64,000 nucleotides of DNA from an uncultured Prochlorococcus sp. (GTDB taxonomy: Bacteria; Cyanobacteriota; Cyanobacteriia; PCC-6307; Cyanobiaceae). A program made the translations under genes and the position numbers. This document shows, in pieces, positions 6,233 to 60,174 of this stretch (position 1 is its first letter; every line of letters starts with the position of its first letter). Where the stretch lies: positions 1 to 64,000 of the forward strand of contig CACGNA010000001.1 in assembly GCA_902574425.1 (NCBI GenBank). The letters are read 5' to 3'. The notes beneath the pieces are model-generated. The model was not told the origin of the DNA. It was given only the letters and a program-made list of their open reading frames with translations, and ran no database searches.

Positions 6233-6379
6233 ATGGCAGATCCAGTTCTCTATCTATCTATGGTTTTGGGATTTGGAGGTGTTTATGTATTAATCTCTTC
6301 TTTCCATGATGATGATGATGGTGATGATGATGGAGAAAAATATATTTATAATCTTGAAATCTCCGACTTAGCTAATTAG
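6233..6379 (+). CDS. Tiny membrane protein with acidic tail
   Basis: A 48-residue frame from ATG at 6233 (MADPVLYLSMVLGFGGVYVL), one membrane span, then an Asp-rich segment with FHDDDDGDDDGEK. An in-frame ATG at 6215 adds six residues. The layout of one helix plus an acidic tail resembles the gene at 8443-8556. The acidic cluster could bind cations, but function is unknown. Confidence 0.5.
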   Translation: MADPVLYLSMVLGFGGVYVLISSFHDDDDGDDDGEKYIYNLEISDLAN

Positions 6380-49792: not shown

Positions 49793-50326
49793 CTAAACAT
49801 TCCCGATTATTAAATAAAGAAAAATATAATATAAAAATGAACCTAAAAATGTGTTTATTAGGATAACTTTTTTTTTGGTTTTTGAATAGGCAATAATATA
49901 GCTTCCCAAGACGTGAGGTATTATCGGGAAAGATCTTATAATTAAGATATAAAAAGATCTAAAAGTGACATTTTCAAAAAATTTATAAAGATAATTTTTC
50001 TTTGGGTTTATCAAAAGCAATATATTTCCAGAAAATCTGAATTTAATTTTTCTCAAAATAAGAACTTGAATTACACTTAAAATGGTTAAAACTGGAGAAA
50101 AAAATAAAACATAATATAACCCAAAAAGTTTTACTAATATAAAGTCAAAAATAATCGATAAAGGAAGACCGAAAAATATAGAAAGCATATTCAAAGCTAT
50201 CAAATATTTGTATTGAATATTATTAACTAATAATTCAATATCATAGGTATATTTAAATATTAAAGCCAGAAAATAAACCAATAAATAGGTAAAAAATACT
50301 TTAAAAATTAATGATTTTAAATTCAT
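49793..50326 (-). CDS. Membrane protein, possible VTT/DedA-type
   Basis: A 177-residue protein with about five hydrophobic segments. SIFFGLPLSIIFDFILVKLFG and FRSFYILIIRSFPIIPHVLG recall the VTT (TVP38/TMEM64, DedA) pattern G-x-P…F-x-x-x-x-x-x-R-x-x-P-x-x-P. Very AT-rich and Ile/Phe/Tyr-heavy, unlike core genes. Assignment is tentative. Confidence 0.5.
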   Translation of the reverse strand: MNLKSLIFKVFFTYLLVYFLALIFKYTYDIELLVNNIQYKYLIALNMLSIFFGLPLSIIFDFILVKLFGLYYVLFFSPVLTILSVIQVLILRKIKFRFSGNILLLINPKKNYLYKFFENVTFRSFYILIIRSFPIIPHVLGSYIIAYSKTKKKVILINTFLGSFLYYIFLYLIIGNV

Positions 50327-51660: not shown

Positions 51661-51819
51661 TTAGTAGATTTTGCAATGAGAACTTGTTGGGTGGTCTATG
51701 CATTCTTTTTCCCAATAATCTTGTCTTTGATCTTTAGGTAGTTGATAATTAAAATCATGCATTCTCCAAATATCTGAAGTTGCATTTCTAAGGGCAGTGA
51801 ATGGAGTCGTTAGTCTCAT
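51661..51819 (-). CDS. Small protein with CP12-like C-terminus
   Basis: A 52-residue ATG frame with an excellent ribosome binding site (AGGAGGTTTT). It starts MRLTTPFTALRNATSDIWRM and ends YWEKECIDHPTSSHCKIY. The end has two Cys separated by eight residues followed by [KR]-I-Y, the same spacing as the C-terminal Cys loop of CP12, which binds GAPDH under oxidising conditions. The N-terminal CP12 part is missing. A terminator follows directly. Confidence 0.65.
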   Translation of the reverse strand: MRLTTPFTALRNATSDIWRMHDFNYQLPKDQRQDYWEKECIDHPTSSHCKIY

Positions 51820-52176
51820 AAAACCTCCTATATCTCTACTTCTTAATTATCCTCCCATTCAATTGAAATTAATAGAGTATTAATACCCGAGTATTAGTGC
51901 TTTGTGGTTGTTACAACTTTTTTCCAATTAAGAACTTTCTTTTCCCATTAAGTAGGATTAGAAATAATTCACTATTCAAACGCACTTCATCGAATTTGTG
52001 GACAGAGGGGTTTATAAGACTAGAAGAGGGTATTTGTTTGCCCTCTTATTTTTTTTCAATTTTATTCGTGTATTTTGTTAATGGATTAAACTTATAAAGT
52101 AAATCATAAAATTTCTTATTCAAAAGATAATGATTAAAATCTCTTTGGATGCGTTCAAAAAGTATGTAGGGAAAGT
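51820..52176 (+). other. Non-coding stretch, candidate small RNA ending in a terminator
   Basis: A 66-codon frame at 51897-52097 runs through the terminator hairpin and is not convincing. GAGTATTA is repeated at about 51872 and 51890, just before the candidate RNA start. A transcript ending at the 52025-52056 terminator would be about 150 nt. Confidence 0.4.
52025..52056 (+). terminator. Intrinsic terminator
   Basis: AGAGGG (52025-52030) pairs with CCCTCT (52041-52046), followed by TATTTTTTTT. No upstream plus-strand gene ends here, so it suggests a separate small RNA. Confidence 0.7.
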
Positions 52177-52362
52177 ATGAGCACTAAATGGGATGACAAA
52201 TCTTGGCAGAAAGATTTCTTAAACATGAAGTCGCATTCTCCCTCAGATGCAAAACTCTTAATTGGAGGTGTAAAAGGATTAAAAGATGCATGGCGTCTAG
52301 GTGTAATGCATTTGGAATACGAAAGACTGAAGAAAATACAGGAGGAACAGCAACAGCAATGA
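52177..52362 (+). CDS. Small conserved protein, duplicated pair 1, first gene
   Basis: A 61-residue protein (MSTKWDDKSWQKDFLNMKSH…) with DAKLLIGGVKGLKDAWRLGV and a Gln-rich end. A near-identical paralogue is at 55644-55835. Its stop overlaps the next ATG (ATGA), so it is coupled to the 76-residue gene. Function unknown; it may be a small two-component module carried by mobile DNA. Confidence 0.75.
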   Translation: MSTKWDDKSWQKDFLNMKSHSPSDAKLLIGGVKGLKDAWRLGVMHLEYERLKKIQEEQQQQ

Positions 52363-52589
52363 CAGAAAAAATAAACTGGCAGAAAGAATTATTAGAAAGT
52401 GGAAAGTTTAATGATAAATTTTCAAAAAATCTTCTAAAACATGGAGCAAAAAACTTTATGCAAGGAATCTATCTTGGATATATGTATTCTAGATGGAGAA
52501 AAATAAGAGGTTTAGCGAAAGATGATCCAGTAGAAAATAAAGGTCAAATGCAATCATCATTCAAAGATTTTGAGGAGAAAATCAAATAA
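52359..52589 (+). CDS. Small conserved protein, duplicated pair 1, second gene
   Basis: A 76-residue protein (MTEKINWQKELLESGKFNDK…) with YLGYMYSRWRKIRGLAKDDP. The start at 52359 overlaps the previous stop. A longer frame opening at 52203 only shadows the first gene. The paralogue at 55832-56062 is about 87% identical by eye. The two genes always appear together here, and each pair is followed by a TCCACCAACAC repeat. Confidence 0.75.
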   Translation: MTEKINWQKELLESGKFNDKFSKNLLKHGAKNFMQGIYLGYMYSRWRKIRGLAKDDPVENKGQMQSSFKDFEEKIK

Positions 52590-52649
52590 AAACGATAAGT
52601 ACTTCCCCTTTAGAAGAATCAGAATCTCCTAATTATTTACAAACGATAT

Positions 52650-52739
52650 TGAGGAATCCACCAACACCATATTTCGTCAATCAAATATCCACCAACACAT
52701 CCACCAACACCAAAAACTTGCCGATATTGGACGACACTG
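52650..52739 (+). repeat. Island repeat R1 (TCCACCAACAC units)
   Basis: TGAGGAATCCACCAACAC, then ATATCCACCAACACATCCACCA and CCAAAAACTTG, then GATATTGGACGA. The same order recurs in R2 (56121-56211) and, partly rearranged, in R3 (58815-58922). R1 and R2 match over about 90 bases with few differences. Confidence 0.85.
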
Positions 52740-52758
52740 TACTCAAAATAATAAAAGA

Positions 52759-55164
52759 TTAACCTTTACTCTTAAAGTGATTGCTTATGTAGTTAATTAG
52801 TTTTTCTCCTTCAAGTTTATCGGTGGCAGGATTTGTTCGAACATAAAAATCTTTAGCATCGATAAAACATGCTGATTTTGATTGTTTACATTCAATCATA
52901 AGGACTTCTTTATTATCAATATTCACAATCTCAGAGTTAATAAAAGGATAAAATTGTTCGCCAATTTTATTTCTAATTTGATTCTTAAAATACAATAAAA
53001 ATTTATCTTTTTTATTTTGTTTTAATTTCAAATCTTTCTCTAGACCAATAATATTGCCTTCATCACTGACTCCAATTAAAAGATGTCCTCCATTACTATT
53101 TAAAAAGGCAGCAATAGTTTTTAAACACGCAAGTTCAATAATCTTTTTATCAACCTCTCCTTTCATGCAGACACTAAAAGTAGACTTAAACTCCAACGTT
53201 CCAGATTCGCCCTTTTGAATAAGATTTATTATTTTTTCTGCATTTGTTAGACCTCCAACTGCTTCAAGCATTCCATCAATTTGTTCAAGAACATTACTTG
53301 TACTAATTGGACTTACAGCATAGTTATTTTCTAATTCTTCTATTTTTACCTTCAAATTATTTAAGCGTTCACTAGTCTTAATTATCTTTTTTTGATCTGA
53401 AATAAATGGTACAGGAATGACCATTTCATCTAAAAAACCTTCCCATCTTATTTCCCTAACAACATTGTAATTACATAGATTTGCAAGCATCAATTTACCA
53501 AGTTTAGATCTAAGGAATACTGATAGATACTTGTTGATAATCTTTTCTGGTTTTAAGACAAGTTGAAATGCGAATTGATGAGATACTTCTAAGTCTTTTA
53601 AGTGAACAACAGAATTTTTTGTGGGAATTCTTGGCACATATATTGCATTATCCTTATCTTCGAAATGTCCTCCGCGCATACAAAAATTCCTTTCAAGAAT
53701 CAATTCATTCAATGCAATACTCTTGTAGTTTTCGTATTGCCCAAGTAAACGTTTAATTTGTTTAGTTTCTGGAGATGCGTTTACATATCTTTTAACGCTT
53801 AGGTTGAAATTATTTTTTTCTAAAGAATCGATTGTGATAATCGATGAATAAAATTCTTTTTCTTCAAAGTTTTCAAAACTATTTAAGATTAATGTTATGT
53901 CCTCTTCTCTTAGGTGGTTTTTATATTTACCTTTTTCATATCCCTGACTTCCATCAATAAAAAGCACTTTGCCTTTCCTTTCATTACTTTTTTTCTTATT
54001 AATAATCAAAATTGATGCAGGAATTCCTGTCCAATCAAATAAACCTTGCGGTAATGCAATTACTGCTTCAATTAAATCTCTCTTTAGAATTCCTTTTCTA
54101 ATTTCCCCTTCAGAAGCACCTCTAAAAAGAATTCCATTTGGAACAAGCACTCCCATGATTCCTGTTTCATTTAAAGATGCAATCATGTGTTGGACAAACG
54201 CAAAGTCGCCAGAACCTTTAGGTGGTATACCAAATTTGTATCTTCCAAAAATATCGTTTTGGGCAATATCGCGACCCCAATTCCCCAAGGAAAAAGGTGG
54301 ATTAGCAATTACTCTATCAAATTGTTTAATTAGACCATTTTCTAGATGTTGAGGATTTATTAATGTATCCCCTTTTTTGATATTTGCTTCATTAACACCA
54401 TGAAATAACATGTTTAATTTGCACATTGTCCATGTACTTTGATTAAGTTCCTGCCCGGCAATCAAAAGTTTATCTGGATCTTCCCCATTTATTTTTAAAT
54501 AATTTCTTGCTGCAGTAAACATTCCACCTGATCCGCATACCGGGTCATATATTTCCATTCCCTCTTTTGGTTTTATTAATTTTATGAGTAATTCAACTAT
54601 CTTTTTAGGAGTATAAAATTCTCCTCCTCTTTTACCTGCAGATTTAACAAACATTTGAATAAGGTATTCGTATGCAGTTCCTAATAAATCAGATTTATCA
54701 AAATCTGATTTCCTTAATCTCAAAATAGAGAAATGAGAAATTAGTTCCCTTAGTTTGAAATCATTTAGTTTATCTTTGATATTAAAATCAATGGATGTAA
54801 GAACCTCATCAAGATTTGGATTATATTGTTCGATTGATTCGTTTGCTTTGTTTAATTTAATCCCAATATCTTGCTTCAAATCTTTTAAATTATTCCATTG
54901 TGCATTTTCAGGAATATAAAAATTATTTTTATAATGATCTGGGTTATTTGCTAATTTTTTTGCTTCGGTTAAGGTTTTATTATTTTCAGTAAAAGACTGA
55001 ATAATTTTTTCCTTTTCTTCATCAAAAGAATCAGAAAGGTGTTTTAAGAAAAAGATGCCAAATATATAATCCTTAAATTCAGAGGCATCTAAAGTACCTC
55101 TGAGAATTTCAGCACTTTCCCAGAGAAATGTTTGAAGTTGTGATAAAGAATGTTTTTTTTCTAT
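52759..55164 (-). CDS. HsdM-HsdS-AlbA_2 fusion, adenine-N6 methylase with damaged start
   Basis: The best-supported reading frame is 801 codons. The N-terminal HsdM_N domain (FLWESAEILRGTLDASEFKD, IFFLKHLSDSFDEE) lies in frame upstream of position 54879 but has no ATG, GTG or TTG; the natural start position (codon at 55164) is ATA followed by GAAAAAAAACAT, so a single G-to-A change of ATG is the simplest explanation. Without it, TTG at 54879 would give a 706-residue protein lacking HsdM_N. Numbered from that TTG, the methylase motifs are DPVCGSGG (112-119) and NPPF (193-196), a single specificity (TRD)-like region spans about 375-530, and an AlbA_2 (Schlafen-like) domain starting GESGTLEFKSTF spans about 557-700. 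No hsdR is present in the window. Confidence 0.8.
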   Translation of the reverse strand: MEKKHSLSQLQTFLWESAEILRGTLDASEFKDYIFGIFFLKHLSDSFDEEKEKIIQSFTENNKTLTEAKKLANNPDHYKNNFYIPENAQWNNLKDLKQDIGIKLNKANESIEQYNPNLDEVLTSIDFNIKDKLNDFKLRELISHFSILRLRKSDFDKSDLLGTAYEYLIQMFVKSAGKRGGEFYTPKKIVELLIKLIKPKEGMEIYDPVCGSGGMFTAARNYLKINGEDPDKLLIAGQELNQSTWTMCKLNMLFHGVNEANIKKGDTLINPQHLENGLIKQFDRVIANPPFSLGNWGRDIAQNDIFGRYKFGIPPKGSGDFAFVQHMIASLNETGIMGVLVPNGILFRGASEGEIRKGILKRDLIEAVIALPQGLFDWTGIPASILIINKKKSNERKGKVLFIDGSQGYEKGKYKNHLREEDITLILNSFENFEEKEFYSSIITIDSLEKNNFNLSVKRYVNASPETKQIKRLLGQYENYKSIALNELILERNFCMRGGHFEDKDNAIYVPRIPTKNSVVHLKDLEVSHQFAFQLVLKPEKIINKYLSVFLRSKLGKLMLANLCNYNVVREIRWEGFLDEMVIPVPFISDQKKIIKTSERLNNLKVKIEELENNYAVSPISTSNVLEQIDGMLEAVGGLTNAEKIINLIQKGESGTLEFKSTFSVCMKGEVDKKIIELACLKTIAAFLNSNGGHLLIGVSDEGNIIGLEKDLKLKQNKKDKFLLYFKNQIRNKIGEQFYPFINSEIVNIDNKEVLMIECKQSKSACFIDAKDFYVRTNPATDKLEGEKLINYISNHFKSKG

Positions 55165-55307
55165 AATTTTTGGGAATTTCTAAGATTAATTTAGACAAAT
55201 ATTTTTTGATTTACATTTCACATTATTTTTTCGTGATATTCTTTACATTCCTTTGGCAGAAGTTTTGATTAGATATGAACAAATACTGGGTATAATTATG
55301 GAAAATA

Positions 55308-55613
55308 ATGACGAAAAATTCTCCTCCTAAAATTGATGACACCTGGTACTTTCGTGGAAAGTTAATGGAGGATTGCTATCCCTTATTTGATGGAGAATAT
55401 AGATGGCATAAAATTCAAAACTGTCCAAAATGCAAAGCAAAAAATTCTATCAAACCTTGTATTTGGGGCATGCCTAGTGCAGAAGATGGGCGCTCTGGGA
55501 AATATGCAATTATGGGATGCTCTTTAGAAATACCTTCAGCAAAATGGGCATGTGTGAAATGTGACTATAGAATTTATTACCCACCTGATTGCTTGGAAAG
55601 AGATCCAGATTAA
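55308..55613 (+). CDS. Zinc-ribbon protein
   Basis: A 101-residue protein with two knuckles: CPKCKAKN near residue 40 and CVKCDYR near residue 82, plus a middle segment PCIWGMPSAEDGRSGKYAIM GCSLE. The order CPxC, IxxGxPS, GC, W-x-C-x-x-C resembles a widespread family of small zinc-ribbon proteins of unknown role. Stands between the methylase fusion and the second copy of the duplicated gene pair. Confidence 0.7.
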   Translation: MTKNSPPKIDDTWYFRGKLMEDCYPLFDGEYRWHKIQNCPKCKAKNSIKPCIWGMPSAEDGRSGKYAIMGCSLEIPSAKWACVKCDYRIYYPPDCLERDPD

Positions 55614-55643
55614 AATTATATCTAAAGTAAACGCATTAAAAAA

Positions 55644-55835
55644 ATGAAGAATGGTAATAAATGGGATGACAAATCTTGGCAGAAAGAGTTCTTGAACATG
55701 AAGTCACATTCTCCTTCAGACGCAAAACTCCTAATGGGAGGTGTAAAAGGATTGAAAGATGCTTGGCGTTTAGGTGTTCTGCATGTTGACTACGAAAGAC
55801 TGAAGAAAAGACAAGAGGAGCAGCAGCAGCAATGA
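55644..55835 (+). CDS. Small conserved protein, duplicated pair 2, first gene
   Basis: A 63-residue paralogue of 52177-52362 (KWDDKSWQKEFLNMKSHSPS shared almost exactly). It begins two codons differently (MKNGNKWDD). Stop and next start overlap as in pair 1. Nucleotide similarity extends beyond the stop codon into the following repeat, so a whole segment was duplicated. Confidence 0.75.
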   Translation: MKNGNKWDDKSWQKEFLNMKSHSPSDAKLLMGGVKGLKDAWRLGVLHVDYERLKKRQEEQQQQ

Positions 55836-56062
55836 AAGAAAAAATAAACTGGCAAAAAGAATTAATAGAGAGCGGAAAATTCAACGATAAATTTTCAAAG
55901 AATTTATTAGAAAATGGAGCAAGGAATTTCATGCAAGGAATATATCTTGGATATATGTATTCAAGGTGGAGAAAAATTAGAGGATTGGATAAAGATAACC
56001 CCATAGAAAACAAAGGTCAAATGCAATCATCTTTTAAAGATTTTGAGAAGAAAATCAAATGA
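55832..56062 (+). CDS. Small conserved protein, duplicated pair 2, second gene
   Basis: A 76-residue paralogue of 52359-52589 (MKEKINWQKELIESGKFNDK…). Differences are conservative and include several synonymous changes, so both copies seem under purifying selection. It is followed by repeat R2. Confidence 0.75.
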   Translation: MKEKINWQKELIESGKFNDKFSKNLLENGARNFMQGIYLGYMYSRWRKIRGLDKDNPIENKGQMQSSFKDFEKKIK

Positions 56063-56120
56063 AGATGATATCTATTTCCCTCCAGAAGAGTCAGAACCAC
56101 CTCATTATTAACAAAGGATC

Positions 56121-56211
56121 TTGAGGAATCCACCAACACATAATTCGTGCATCAAATATCCACCAACACATCCACCAACACCAAAAACTTGCAGATATTG
56201 GACGAAATTGG
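56121..56211 (+). repeat. Island repeat R2 (TCCACCAACAC units)
   Basis: Close copy of R1: TTGAGGAATCCACCAACAC, CATCAAATATCCACCAACAC, ATCCACCAACACCAAAAACT and AGATATTGGACGA in the same order. It lies just downstream of gene pair 2 and just before the stop of the minus-strand gene at 56224. Confidence 0.85.
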
Positions 56212-56223
56212 ACTATTAAAACA

Positions 56224-57063
56224 CTAAATTTTATCAAGTGTTCTTTTACCTTTCACTATTAAACTTGTTGCAAGTCCAACTGCGGTAAAAAAGTTTATCC
56301 CTGGGATAGTCAAAGCAACGGCAATCATTGAGAACTTAACAATTTTTTTTCCTGTTATTAATGCAGATGTTTTTAAAAATTCATCTCTTTTGATTTCACC
56401 ATTCATCCATTTTTTAATTAAAAAAACCAAAGATATAGCAAGACTTATTGTTCCAATATTTCCAATTAAAGGAGTAAGAGACTCTTCATCAGCATCCTTT
56501 ACTTTATCTAAAAAATCCTCAACTTTTACCTCTAATTCATCATTACTAATTCCTACACCATCTAACCCTAATTCCTCAGCAACCTCATCAGTGACTACAA
56601 TATTATCGCCATGTTCATCCATCCAACTTTTAACATAAGATGCACTATCAGTTGCCTTAAGTTGAATTTCTTCTATATCCCCTGTTTGTTCATCAATTAA
56701 TTGAACATCATATGTTGGATAATTTGTTTGCTCAAACTGATAAGCAAATATTGAATCGCCATCATTGTTCTCTATCTCAACAAATTCAAGTTCAAATAAA
56801 ATACCTTTTACATTATTAACCAAACCTGGAATCTGATCATCATCATAGGAATTTAAAATTTCCCCTATCTCCTCTAATGAAGCATTCTCGAACTTCTTTG
56901 CAGATCTTCTTAATGCAGCAAGAACTATAGACTCATCAGAAGTAAGATTTCTCTCAGAACCTTTTGATGCAATAGAGATTAAAGAAGTAAGAATAGCAAC
57001 TTCATCAAAGTTATTCCTGACAAAATTTGTCAAACTCCTAATTTTTTCTTTAAATTTATTCAC
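56224..57063 (-). CDS. Nuclease-like membrane protein with PD-(D/Q)xK-type core
   Basis: A 279-residue protein of unknown function. The middle region has the pattern of a PD-(D/E)xK nuclease: a helix with Glu91 (GILFELEFVEIE), Asp119 in PTYDVQLID and Gln134-x-Lys136 in EEIQLKAT, the QxK variant being common in this fold. The C-terminal third has one to two predicted membrane segments (ISLAISLVFLI, GINFFTAVGLATSLIV). It lies 31 bases downstream of the DUF697-like gene, so the two are probably co-expressed. Confidence 0.55.
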   Translation of the reverse strand: MNKFKEKIRSLTNFVRNNFDEVAILTSLISIASKGSERNLTSDESIVLAALRRSAKKFENASLEEIGEILNSYDDDQIPGLVNNVKGILFELEFVEIENNDGDSIFAYQFEQTNYPTYDVQLIDEQTGDIEEIQLKATDSASYVKSWMDEHGDNIVVTDEVAEELGLDGVGISNDELEVKVEDFLDKVKDADEESLTPLIGNIGTISLAISLVFLIKKWMNGEIKRDEFLKTSALITGKKIVKFSMIAVALTIPGINFFTAVGLATSLIVKGKRTLDKI

Positions 57064-57094
57064 TTTAATAAGTTAGTAAATTAATGATTTTTAA

Positions 57095-57640
57095 TCATTT
57101 AATTTCAATCTCATCCCCTTTTTTATACTTATCTTGACCTTTTGTTTTGTATACTTTCCACATTTCTCTAATTTGATCTTTGGAAAGTTTTGATTGTCCT
57201 TTTGCACGCCTTTTATAAATTAATTCCGAAAGAACATTTCCAATAGCATAGGTGCATCCATAAACCATTGGTATAGTGGTTACTGCACCAAAATATGGCA
57301 GAAAAGTTTTATAAGATTGAGTCACAAAGAACATTGCACCTAATCCCATAAATCCAATTTTACTAATATCTTTTAATACTGAACCAACAGATGCTTCTTT
57401 GACAGGAACTCCCCAGATTGCTGCTAATCTTTCTCCCATTAATACTTGTAAAGGAGTCAATATAAAGATATCCATGAATGGGATTGGTTGTATCGCGACT
57501 CCAGCACAAACTCCCGAAAATAAATTAATTATTCTTTGTGCTTTTTCTTCCTGAGAAAGATCATCTCTTTTTTCAATTTCAACCAAATTTTCTTTCAAAA
57601 ATTTTTTTGCTTTTTCAATTCTGGAATCAGTAGAACTCAT
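57095..57640 (-). CDS. DUF697-like membrane protein
   Basis: A 181-residue protein with the DUF697 pattern: GVAIQPIPFMDIFILTPLQV then LMGERLAAIWGVPV, GFMGLGAMFF and YGCTYAIGNVL. In other bacteria DUF697 domains sit at the C-terminus of GTPase-like proteins; here no GTPase domain precedes it. It is paired with the nuclease-like gene downstream. A membrane-sensor/effector pair is an inference only. Confidence 0.7.
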   Translation of the reverse strand: MSSTDSRIEKAKKFLKENLVEIEKRDDLSQEEKAQRIINLFSGVCAGVAIQPIPFMDIFILTPLQVLMGERLAAIWGVPVKEASVGSVLKDISKIGFMGLGAMFFVTQSYKTFLPYFGAVTTIPMVYGCTYAIGNVLSELIYKRRAKGQSKLSKDQIREMWKVYKTKGQDKYKKGDEIEIK

Positions 57641-57771
57641 TTAAAAAACTTTTTTTTATAATATTTTAATTAATTTGATAAATCTTAAATTATGTAGAAT
57701 TCTTTATTTTTAAAACTAATTTCCTAAAAAATTTTTTTAATATTCGAATCAAATAATTTATATATTATTCT

Positions 57772-58716
57772 TCAATTTTCTTGATGAATTTTCGCCCAGG
57801 TTTCAAAAAATAATAATGCATATAATATTCCAAGGAATTTCTTTCTAGTCTTATTTTTATTTTTTGGATGACTTAACGCATTACGGCAATTCATCATTAT
57901 CGACAAAGATTGATATAGATCTACCGTTCCTTCACGATCATTGAAATAATATCCTTCTCTTCTAGCATCATCAACACATCTGTTATAACTTTTGCTTTTA
58001 TTATTTGCATCAATATTCTTTAATGTTCCATATACTATTTCATGATTTTCTAAAACAAAATCTGTTAACTGATTTATATTAAAACTTTCTAATAAAGATT
58101 GCATTTTGGGATTATCTTTTAGCATTGGTCCGTCAGATATTATTTGACGAAAATATTTATTCATCACATCATCAATCTTTTCATTTTGATAATTCTCATT
58201 TCCCTTTGATTTTTTCTCAAGCATCAATATATTATTTTTATTTTTGTTTTCCAATAGAGAATCCAATTTCTCAGATTGACTAGATAATGAGTTCTTAAGA
58301 AAATTAATAGACTCGCTAAATTCATCTAATTTTTCTTGAATAAGTAAGGATTTATTATCAGAAACAGAGGAAGTAGCATTTAGTTCTTGTTTTGGTTGTC
58401 TTCTAAAATCTTGCCAGAGTTCTTTTATTTGATCATCCGTAAGATTTGACTCCTTATTTGAACTATTTACATTTACCTTGGTTTCATGTTGTGGTTCAGT
58501 GATTTTGAAAATTTTTGCTTTTGGTTTCAACTTTGCTACTAATTCTTTATAAACAGATATTTTTTTCGGAAAAACCCATTTTCTTATTTCACCATTCCAT
58601 TGCCTAAATTGAATATCTTTTGCAATTTGTCTTTCTTCTGGATGAATTTTTAAATAATAGAATTTAAGGTCCTCGGTAATCTCAGGAGGGAAATAAGGAG
58701 TTCTATAGTCAGTCAA
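57772..58716 (-). CDS. HARP-like domain and HEPN-type RNase protein
   Basis: A 314-residue two-domain protein. Residues about 7-65 (YFPPEITEDLKFYYLKIHPE…RQWNGEIRKWVFPK) resemble the HARP-type domain (a DxxxxxxxK pattern then W-x-x-x-x-K-x-W-x-F-P). The C-terminal part is helical and carries RNALSH (Arg278…His283), the RxxxxH motif of HEPN ribonucleases, with the usual Asn after Arg. A Lys/Asn/Ser-rich linker joins them. HEPN RNases are frequent effectors in abortive-infection and toxin systems, so a defence role is inferred. Confidence 0.6.
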   Translation of the reverse strand: MTDYRTPYFPPEITEDLKFYYLKIHPEERQIAKDIQFRQWNGEIRKWVFPKKISVYKELVAKLKPKAKIFKITEPQHETKVNVNSSNKESNLTDDQIKELWQDFRRQPKQELNATSSVSDNKSLLIQEKLDEFSESINFLKNSLSSQSEKLDSLLENKNKNNILMLEKKSKGNENYQNEKIDDVMNKYFRQIISDGPMLKDNPKMQSLLESFNINQLTDFVLENHEIVYGTLKNIDANNKSKSYNRCVDDARREGYYFNDREGTVDLYQSLSIMMNCRNALSHPKNKNKTRKKFLGILYALLFFETWAKIHQEN

Positions 58717-58814
58717 AACGCTGAGATTTACTTATCATAAAGACTAATAAATTTTTCAATACAAAACAAATATTTTCAACTTTCAATAATTTCTTGTAAT
58801 TAAGTTTTAATGTC

Positions 58815-58922
58815 ATATCCACCAACACATACTTCGTGCATCAAATATCCACCAACACATCAAAAAATATCCACCAACACATCCACCAACACAATCAGGC
58901 ATACACTGGTAAATATTGGACT
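58815..58922 (+). repeat. Island repeat R3 (TCCACCAACAC units) next to tRNA-Ser
   Basis: Four TCCACCAACAC units with an inserted CAAAAAATA spacer, then AATATTGGACTT. Similar in content to R1 and R2 but with an extra unit. It lies about 80 bases from the 3' end of tRNA-Ser. Confidence 0.8.
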
Positions 58923-59003
58923 TTATAGGACAAGCAACTTCTTTAAAAACCTATTTTGACTACATTATTGCCCACATAGCACTTTACAGAAAGATTATTA
59001 AAC

Positions 59004-59087
59004 GGAGAGGGTGGGATTCGAACCCACGAATAGTTACCTATTAAACGATTTCGAATCGTTCGCTTTCGACCACTCAGCCACCTCTCC
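59004..59087 (-). tRNA. tRNA-Ser (anticodon CGA)
   Basis: An 84-base class II tRNA on the minus strand: acceptor GGAGAGG pairs with CCTCTCC, D-arm GTGGCTGAGTGGTCGAAAGC, anticodon loop TTCGAAA with CGA at the centre, a long variable arm and T-loop GGTTCGAATCC. It decodes UCG. Its 3' end faces the accessory block at 52-58.9 kb, a common integration geometry. Confidence 0.95.
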
Positions 59088-59151
59088 AAGTTTTATTAAT
59101 TATCTACAAAATTGGATGAAAAAGTTAAGGTCTATTTATTTATCTTAATTA

Positions 59152-60174
59152 TTAATTCCAACCTGCATCTTTCATCAATTTTATTGCAAGAGAGTTATTA
59201 ACCCCAAGATCGTATACTGTAACCTTGTCAGGAGTAAATTCTCCAAAATCTTTGACAATAGGGTTTTGATTAACCTCTTTTAATGGATGTTCAAAAGTAG
59301 GCTCAGCTAATCCTTTACTGCCTCCTGGAGATGCTAAATATTCAAGTAGCTTAATAGCTTCAGCTTTATTAGAGGCATATTTAGCAACGCCACCAGCGCT
59401 AATATTTACATGAGCAGGACTAGGTGTAAGTACTACTGTTTTTTTTGCATATAAAGCATCTCTTCTTCCATTAATCCCTGCCAACATCCTTGCTGCATAA
59501 TAATGATTAACTATCCCTATTCCGCACTTTTTCTTAGAAACTGCTCTTATTATTGAAATATCTCCTGGGAAGAAAGGTTGAGAAACATTAGATATCATCG
59601 CATTAAGCCAAGTTTTTGTTGCCTCTTGACCTTTATTAACAATTTGATTAGCTACCAATGATTGATTATATGGACTTTTTCTGTTCCTTAAGCATACTTT
59701 ACCTTTCAAGGATGGATCAGCTAGATCTGTAAAATCATTTATCTTACTCACATCTACAACTTTTGGATTAGCGACCATAACTCTTACTCTTCTAGTTAAT
59801 GCATACCATTTCTTATCCTTATCTTTCAAACCATATGGCACATCATTTTCTAAGGATGGAGATTCAATACTCTGAAGTAATCCAGCTTTTGCAGCATTCG
59901 TGATTCTTGCAGCATCAACTAGCAATATTAAATCTGCTTGGGAATTCTTTCCCTCCCTTTTCAATCTTTCAATTAAAGAAATTCCTGCAGCTTCAATTAA
60001 CCTAACTTTAATTCCCGTTTCTTCTGCAAATTTTTTGTATACAGCTCTATCAGTGTTGTAGTGTCTACCCGAATAAACTTTTACTTCTTTTTGTGTTGAA
60101 TTAGATGGTGAATTAACATTTAATAAAAATGTCAAGGTTAGTGCTGAGTAAAAAATTTTTTTTAGTTTTTGCAC
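59152..60174 (-). CDS. futA: Fe(III) ABC transporter substrate-binding protein
   Basis: A 340-residue periplasmic binding protein of the FutA/IdiA family with a signal peptide (about residues 1-24). VKVYSGRHYNTD (His-Tyr) and GIVNHYYAARM (Tyr-Tyr) supply the ligands that bind ferric iron in this family. It captures iron in the periplasm for FutBC import; the permease and ATPase are not in this window. Divergent from the 2OG dioxygenase gene, with 96 bases between, but no clear Fur box was seen. Confidence 0.93.
   Translation of the reverse strand: MQKLKKIFYSALTLTFLLNVNSPSNSTQKEVKVYSGRHYNTDRAVYKKFAEETGIKVRLIEAAGISLIERLKREGKNSQADLILLVDAARITNAAKAGLLQSIESPSLENDVPYGLKDKDKKWYALTRRVRVMVANPKVVDVSKINDFTDLADPSLKGKVCLRNRKSPYNQSLVANQIVNKGQEATKTWLNAMISNVSQPFFPGDISIIRAVSKKKCGIGIVNHYYAARMLAGINGRRDALYAKKTVVLTPSPAHVNISAGGVAKYASNKAEAIKLLEYLASPGGSKGLAEPTFEHPLKEVNQNPIVKDFGEFTPDKVTVYDLGVNNSLAIKLMKDAGWN

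Follow-up and report, generated by a model that had tools for sequence, protein, structure and literature searches.

The 64,000-nucleotide stretch of uncultured Prochlorococcus sp. DNA analysed here (the window; contig CACGNA010000001.1) carries two overlapping small genes, A and B, twice, each time followed by an array of a short direct repeat, TCCACCAACAC, and this raises the question of which unit was moved or duplicated at the locus and what moved it. The sequence-only reading of this DNA had proposed that the unit was the gene pair plus the repeat and that the pair could itself be a mobile or maintenance function. Our analysis favors a different answer, to which we assign a probability of about 0.86, namely that decayed integrative elements are stacked at tRNA-Ser(CGA) in the interval from 52.08 to 59.01 kb, and that the TCCACCAACAC repeats would be the arm sites of an integrase. 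All close relatives of the window in the collection of named genomes are Prochlorococcus.

All 10 occurrences of TCCACCAACAC in the window (0.02 expected by chance) are on the plus strand within 52657-58892, and the repeat was not found elsewhere in the rest of the source genome assembly, which is 65% complete. The occurrences form three arrays, R1 to R3 (Table 1). R1 and R2 are each composed of a right-arm head (GATNTTGAGGAA, first spacing 30-31) and a left-arm tail (CAAAAACTTGC.GATATTGGACGA). The island has the same borders in relatives, with variable content between them. At its right border the window's sole exact GGAGAGGGTG lies inside the core formed by the tRNA 3' end, and an Rfam scan matched nothing but the tRNA. 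At its left border homology to the empty sites of related genomes stops at approximately 52083, and the left core is decayed, with TTAATGGATTAAAC present where TTAACGGAGAGGGTG is expected. The tRNA copy is the only surviving core in the window, and with two of the three arrays fused this is a caveat to any reading based on the window itself.

Table 1. Coordinates of the island, its borders and its contents in the window.
Feature	Position	Strand	Remarks
Small conserved gene, left border of island	51661-51819		
Left chromosomal flank	51820-52083	.	common to unoccupied sites L097, L111, L114, L116 (alignment)
Protein A, copy 1	52177-52362	+	61 aa
Protein B, copy 1	52359-52589	+	76 aa; ATGA overlap with A
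R1, fused arm array	52657-52710	+	right-arm head; 3 copies at +0, +31, +43
Left-arm tail fused to R1	52711-52743	+	CAAAAACTTGCCGATATTGGACGA...
Cargo: N6 DNA methylase, C-terminal Schlafen/AlbA_2 domain (type I-like)	52759-54879	-	Pfam, PADLOC
Cargo: 101-aa ORF	55308-55613	+	no family match
Protein A, copy 2	55644-55835	+	63 aa
Protein B, copy 2	55832-56062	+	76 aa; ATGA overlap with A
R2, fused arm array	56129-56181	+	3 copies at +0, +30, +42
Left-arm tail fused to R2	56182-56214	+	array reading, DNA alignment with R1 unit
Cargo: 279-aa protein, candidate defence family PDC-M72B	56224-57063	-	PADLOC
Cargo: DUF697-like protein, 181 aa	57095-57640	-	family match
Cargo: 314-aa protein	57772-58716	-	no family
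R3, intact right arm	58818-58892	+	4 copies at +0, +30, +52, +64
tRNA-Ser(CGA), integration target	59002-59088	-	Rfam
Core CGGAGAGGGTG = tRNA-Ser 3' end	59003-59013	+	starts 111 bp past R3
Iron-transport-like binding protein gene, beyond tRNA-Ser(CGA)	59152-60174		named by eye

The coordinates, the ORF lengths and the ATGA overlap of both gene pairs had been read correctly from the sequence, while the description of the proteins as near-identical was slightly strong for identities that are high but amount to 87% for A and 88% for B. Similarity between the two copies does continue, as had been noticed, through the spacer into the arrays, with DNA identities of 86% in the coding region, 79% in the 66-bp spacer, 94% in the array and 88% in the 33-bp tail behind it. 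Identity is at background just upstream of A (53%) and past the tail (56%); the homology between the units extends from the start codon of A to 33 bp past the array, and the distance from pair to array is 66-67 bp in both copies. The dN/dS between the copies, a measurement that the sequence-only reading had called for, is 0.10 for A, 0.04 for B and 0.07 combined, at a dS of approximately 0.9, indicating that the copies diverged long ago and have been under purifying selection.

The presence of two similar units at a distance of 3.5 kb and in the same orientation might be expected from a local tandem duplication of pair and repeat within this genome by homologous recombination. However, in a tree of the pairs the copies fall into different groups, each together with pairs from other genomes, the distance of pair 1 to L040/L055 and that of pair 2 to L044 both being 0.08 compared with 0.21 between pair 1 and pair 2. 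In addition, both lineages are present in L039, where their order is reversed. These relationships and the high dS speak against a duplication of pair and repeat in place, and make local duplication the least probable of the explanations weighed here. Since the two copies belong to different lineages, they were acquired separately, by accretion.

The anatomy of the TCCACCAACAC arrays was compared across 266 related genomes of the genus, in which 67 arrays were examined. Left arms contain two TCCACCAACAC copies 12 bp apart (three in one case) with the core GGAGAGGGTG upstream, and in 23 of 24 arrays the first repeat follows the core start at a distance of 80-81 bp. Right arms contain two to seven copies, most commonly four, and their last repeat is followed by the downstream core after 111-115 bp in all 31 cases. 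The same core and left-arm spacing were found in L251, which belongs to another genus. Among the 67 arrays, a core is missing on both sides of eight and present on both sides of four. R1 and R2 belong to the coreless class, of which another fusion is present in L039, and the tail of R1 is also seen behind left arms that adjoin a core, in L102, L105, L110, L117 and L120. No insert is present at this site in L097, L111, L114 and L116, and when L102, L103, L118 and L120 are compared with such empty sites, their left breakpoints coincide exactly with the core CGGAGAGGGTG. In L118 the arm motif co-varies at both ends (TCCACCACCAC), and in relatives at four tRNA genes the 3' end of the target tRNA is duplicated at the element ends as direct repeats of 11-18 bp. 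The anatomy, its fixed geometry, the duplicated core in relatives and the empty sites can be read from the sequences themselves, and the TCCACCAACAC array most likely constitutes the arm-type portion of an attachment site, to which the integrase would bind.

Elements at tRNA-Ser(CGA), tRNA-Asn, tRNA-Ser(GCT) and tRNA-Ser(TGA) that encode tyrosine integrases follow the same plan, but their arm motifs are different. One of them is a 5.0-kb element at tRNA-Ser(CGA) in L137 (6247-11273, core repeats at 6247 and 11263), whose TTTTACATGTGT arms are laid out as the TCCACCAACAC arms are, and whose P4-like integrase of 413 aa contains Arm-DNA-bind_3, Phage_int_M and Phage_integrase domains (arm-binding, central and catalytic, respectively). 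L138 is its sister, with integrases that are 85-86% identical. The L137 element also encodes a serine resolvase and a 226-aa protein that was guessed to be Rep-like (no family match). A short stretch of TTTTACATGTGT repeats, as in L137-type arms, was observed in L041 (8500-9060), where it separates the right arm of TCCACCAACAC repeats from the tRNA, and is probably a relic of a second element. When 18 elements at four tRNA genes, delimited by a tRNA-3'-end repeat and having a detectable tandem left arm, were analyzed, the left-arm motif recurred at least twice at the right end in 18 of 18 elements, compared with 44 of 306 cross-element comparisons. Elements with more similar integrases also tended, modestly, to have more similar arms (Spearman coefficient 0.32, a value reached in 214 of 5000 permutations, p ~0.04). 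An integrase gene with TCCACCAACAC arms was not found in the 266 genomes of the genus, and because of this we infer the protein that would bind these arms from the sister elements. The motifs shared between element ends and the integrases of the sister elements, like the purifying selection on the pair, are established by sequence comparison.

Direct repeats at spacings of 12, 22 and 30 bp also resemble iterons, and some pair-bearing elements encode a DnaB-type helicase, the gene of which lies upstream of the pair at tRNA-Ser(CGA) in L041, L043 and L120. The arrays might accordingly be replication-origin iterons, or a transcriptional operator, that lie near the tRNA by chance. However, they are found at both element ends at a fixed distance from the tRNA-derived core, and each sister element has its own matched end arrays. 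The arrays show no link to a replication gene, and such a function is very unlikely.

Both terminal cores are preserved in 13 TCCACCAACAC elements (12 distinct), which have sizes of 0.8-6.1 kb and carry cargo. An integrase of the kind searched is absent from all 13 of these intact elements, and a cognate integrase of this type was not found in the genome of the window (65% complete). The TCCACCAACAC cassettes look non-autonomous because no integrase with TCCACCAACAC arms was found, and for want of a cognate integrase the units in the window were classed as non-autonomous or decayed relatives of such elements rather than as autonomous members. Among the cargo of the complete elements are a C5 methylase, accompanied in L103 by an ICEA/type II restriction-like gene, TPR proteins, a DedA/SNARE-like gene and, in L251 from the other genus, a lone DUF805 gene. 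A 177-aa SNARE/DedA-like gene (named by eye) is also resident in the window at 49793-50326, left of a rhomboid gene; as such a gene lies between two TCCACCAACAC arms in L122, L129, L130 and L136, it travels as a cassette too.

B also occurs in other genera of the family, being found in 8 of 59. Of 88 distinct B loci, a tRNA gene lies within 10 kb of 68, in the orientation of a tRNA-integrated element (44 at tRNA-Ser(CGA), 12 at tRNA-Asn, six at tRNA-Met(CAT), four at tRNA-Cys and two at tRNA-Ser(GCT)), and 29 of them face the tRNA at less than 500 bp. At the other 20 loci, some of them at contig ends, no tRNA was seen in the retrieved flank. The expectation that the pair lies near tRNA genes and moves with mobile DNA was thus borne out by its linkage to tRNA genes in 68 of 88 cases and by its position 2-10 kb from an integrase in several full elements. 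A-B is a conserved gene module at the right, tRNA-proximal end of elements, and its upstream neighbor is often a gene for a serine resolvase or a DnaB-type helicase. A serine resolvase gene with A-B, or B alone, directly behind it was found in the integrase-bearing L177, L178, L180, L182, L183 and L184; this order is seen at several tRNAs, and lies on the tRNA side of the element wherever a tRNA is within range. In L180 and L181 (G183:C15) three B copies in two orientations, an integrase and tRNA-Asn were observed on one contig.

The constant gap between pair and array in both copies, the similarity that spans the entire unit and the presence of TCCACCAACAC behind 23 of the 44 pairs at tRNA-Ser(CGA) are features expected if pair and repeat constituted a minimal mobile or maintenance module, in which the small proteins act on the adjacent repeat. 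The tie of the pair to TCCACCAACAC nevertheless does not hold: TCCACCAACAC lies less than 400 bp away at only 24 of the 88 loci, of which 23 are at tRNA-Ser(CGA) and none at any other tRNA, whereas cassettes without the pair are also flanked by TCCACCAACAC arms (e.g. L103, L122, L127, L129, L130, L133 and L251). Pairs at tRNA-Asn, -Cys, -Met and -Ser(GCT) occur without TCCACCAACAC, some of them with other arm motifs. Moreover, the repeats are explained by integrases with an arm-binding domain, and we found no evidence that A-B itself mobilises DNA. A minimal module of this kind is therefore highly improbable, and the actual moving unit is larger than pair plus repeat, consisting of core, left arm, cargo, in some cases the pair, right arm and core.

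Searches of Pfam, PADLOC and the sequences of solved structures gave no function for A or B, and matches to dynein (E 0.06) were taken as chance. The predicted structures of A and B are small and all-helical, with modest confidence (pLDDT 76 and 72). A fold search with the B structure found nothing significant in the PDB and no match past E 0.001 in a viral library, where the best matches (E 0.05 or weaker) were mostly uncharacterised small cyanophage proteins. By sequence, B shares 46% identity with AIR93463 of P-TIM68, and this protein as query matched 52 phage records, all named Prochlorococcus, Synechococcus, cyanophage or marine viruses. A and B both match the same two PHROGs, 16908 and 869, and these small proteins of T4-like cyanophages and A/B are of the same family by sequence. 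Visual inspection shows a resemblance between A and B (WQK[DE]..., G.KG...), but their profile comparison is weak (probability 20%). The C-terminus of B (GQMQSSFKxFE) was considered as a candidate clamp-binding motif. Scans of IMG/VR viral contigs found no match for B and none for the array. The T4-like cyanophages P-RSM4 (L238:3001-3246) and S-SSM4 (L237:2935-3222) each have a short A-like ORF immediately upstream of uvsY, in a frame that differs from that of the gene annotated there. While the gene stands amid replication and recombination genes in the T4-like cyanophages examined, in the window it is present as two overlapping genes in tandem, within an integrative element. The phage relatives suggest a role of the pair in DNA replication/recombination or in exploiting phages, and A-B probably has a satellite function linked to the DNA metabolism of a phage or of the element. 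The only pointers to a phage-satellite nature of the elements are indirect, namely the phage-related A/B proteins and the DnaB-type helicase.

In the stacked-element reading favored here, an original element would have consisted of a core (tRNA 3' end), approximately 81 bp, a left arm of two direct TCCACCAACAC copies 12 bp apart, cargo, often A-B, a right arm of most often four copies, approximately 111 bp and a second core. A tyrosine integrase would cut the core while gripping the arms via its N-terminal arm-binding domain, and one tRNA would have received successive insertions. The core between two neighboring elements would then have been lost by recombination or slippage, in which the right arm of the first was joined to the left arm of the second, yielding R1 and R2. 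A wider and tentative possibility is a trans-mobilised system, in which integrase-less cassettes of one or a few genes with their own arm motifs are stacked at tRNA-Ser and served by integrases located elsewhere, and in which the A-B pair shared with T4-like cyanophages might link those members that are larger and encode DnaB to infection by phages.

These results bear on the long-standing question of how Prochlorococcus genomic islands are built. The order of core, 81 bp and two-copy arm at one end, and of right arm, 111 bp and core at the other, shows where elements begin and end in incomplete single-cell genomes, also in the absence of an integrase, hints at which cassettes may still be mobile and predicts the exact circular excision product. 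The phage-shared A-B pair can serve as a marker for such elements.

Hackl et al. (Cell, 2023) reportedly described tycheposons and 'cryptic elements' of Prochlorococcus, and tycheposons are said to use seven tRNAs. The elements in the window resemble both as far as later publications describe them; these mention 'cryptic elements' of Prochlorococcus (PMC10187409) and methionine tRNA as one tycheposon integration site (PMC10872708). Shared features are the host, integration at a small number of tRNA genes, a tyrosine recombinase and cargo, and some tycheposons are thought to be phage satellites (PMC10872708, PMC10187409, PMC10803314, PMC11389934). Likewise, the scheme of core-type and arm-type sites outlined for lambda/P4-type tyrosine integrases in PMC2951348, and the tRNA-integrated genomic islands in PMC4383910, have in common with our elements a tRNA 3' end core, two clusters of short direct-repeat arms and an integrase with N-terminal arm-binding and C-terminal catalytic domains. 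This attachment-site anatomy is already known. In contrast to lambda/P4-type islands, the arm motifs found here differ strongly between elements using one tRNA, and many integrase-less cassettes of 0.8-6 kb are stacked, with coreless fused arms. The stacking of small cassettes separated by recombination sites is similar to that of integron gene cassettes, although the sites here are direct-repeat arms around a tRNA-derived core. In comparison with these systems, the features that look new are the exact arm code and its element-specific diversity, the fusion of arms, the stacks of cassettes that lack an integrase, and a gene pair that is shared with phages.
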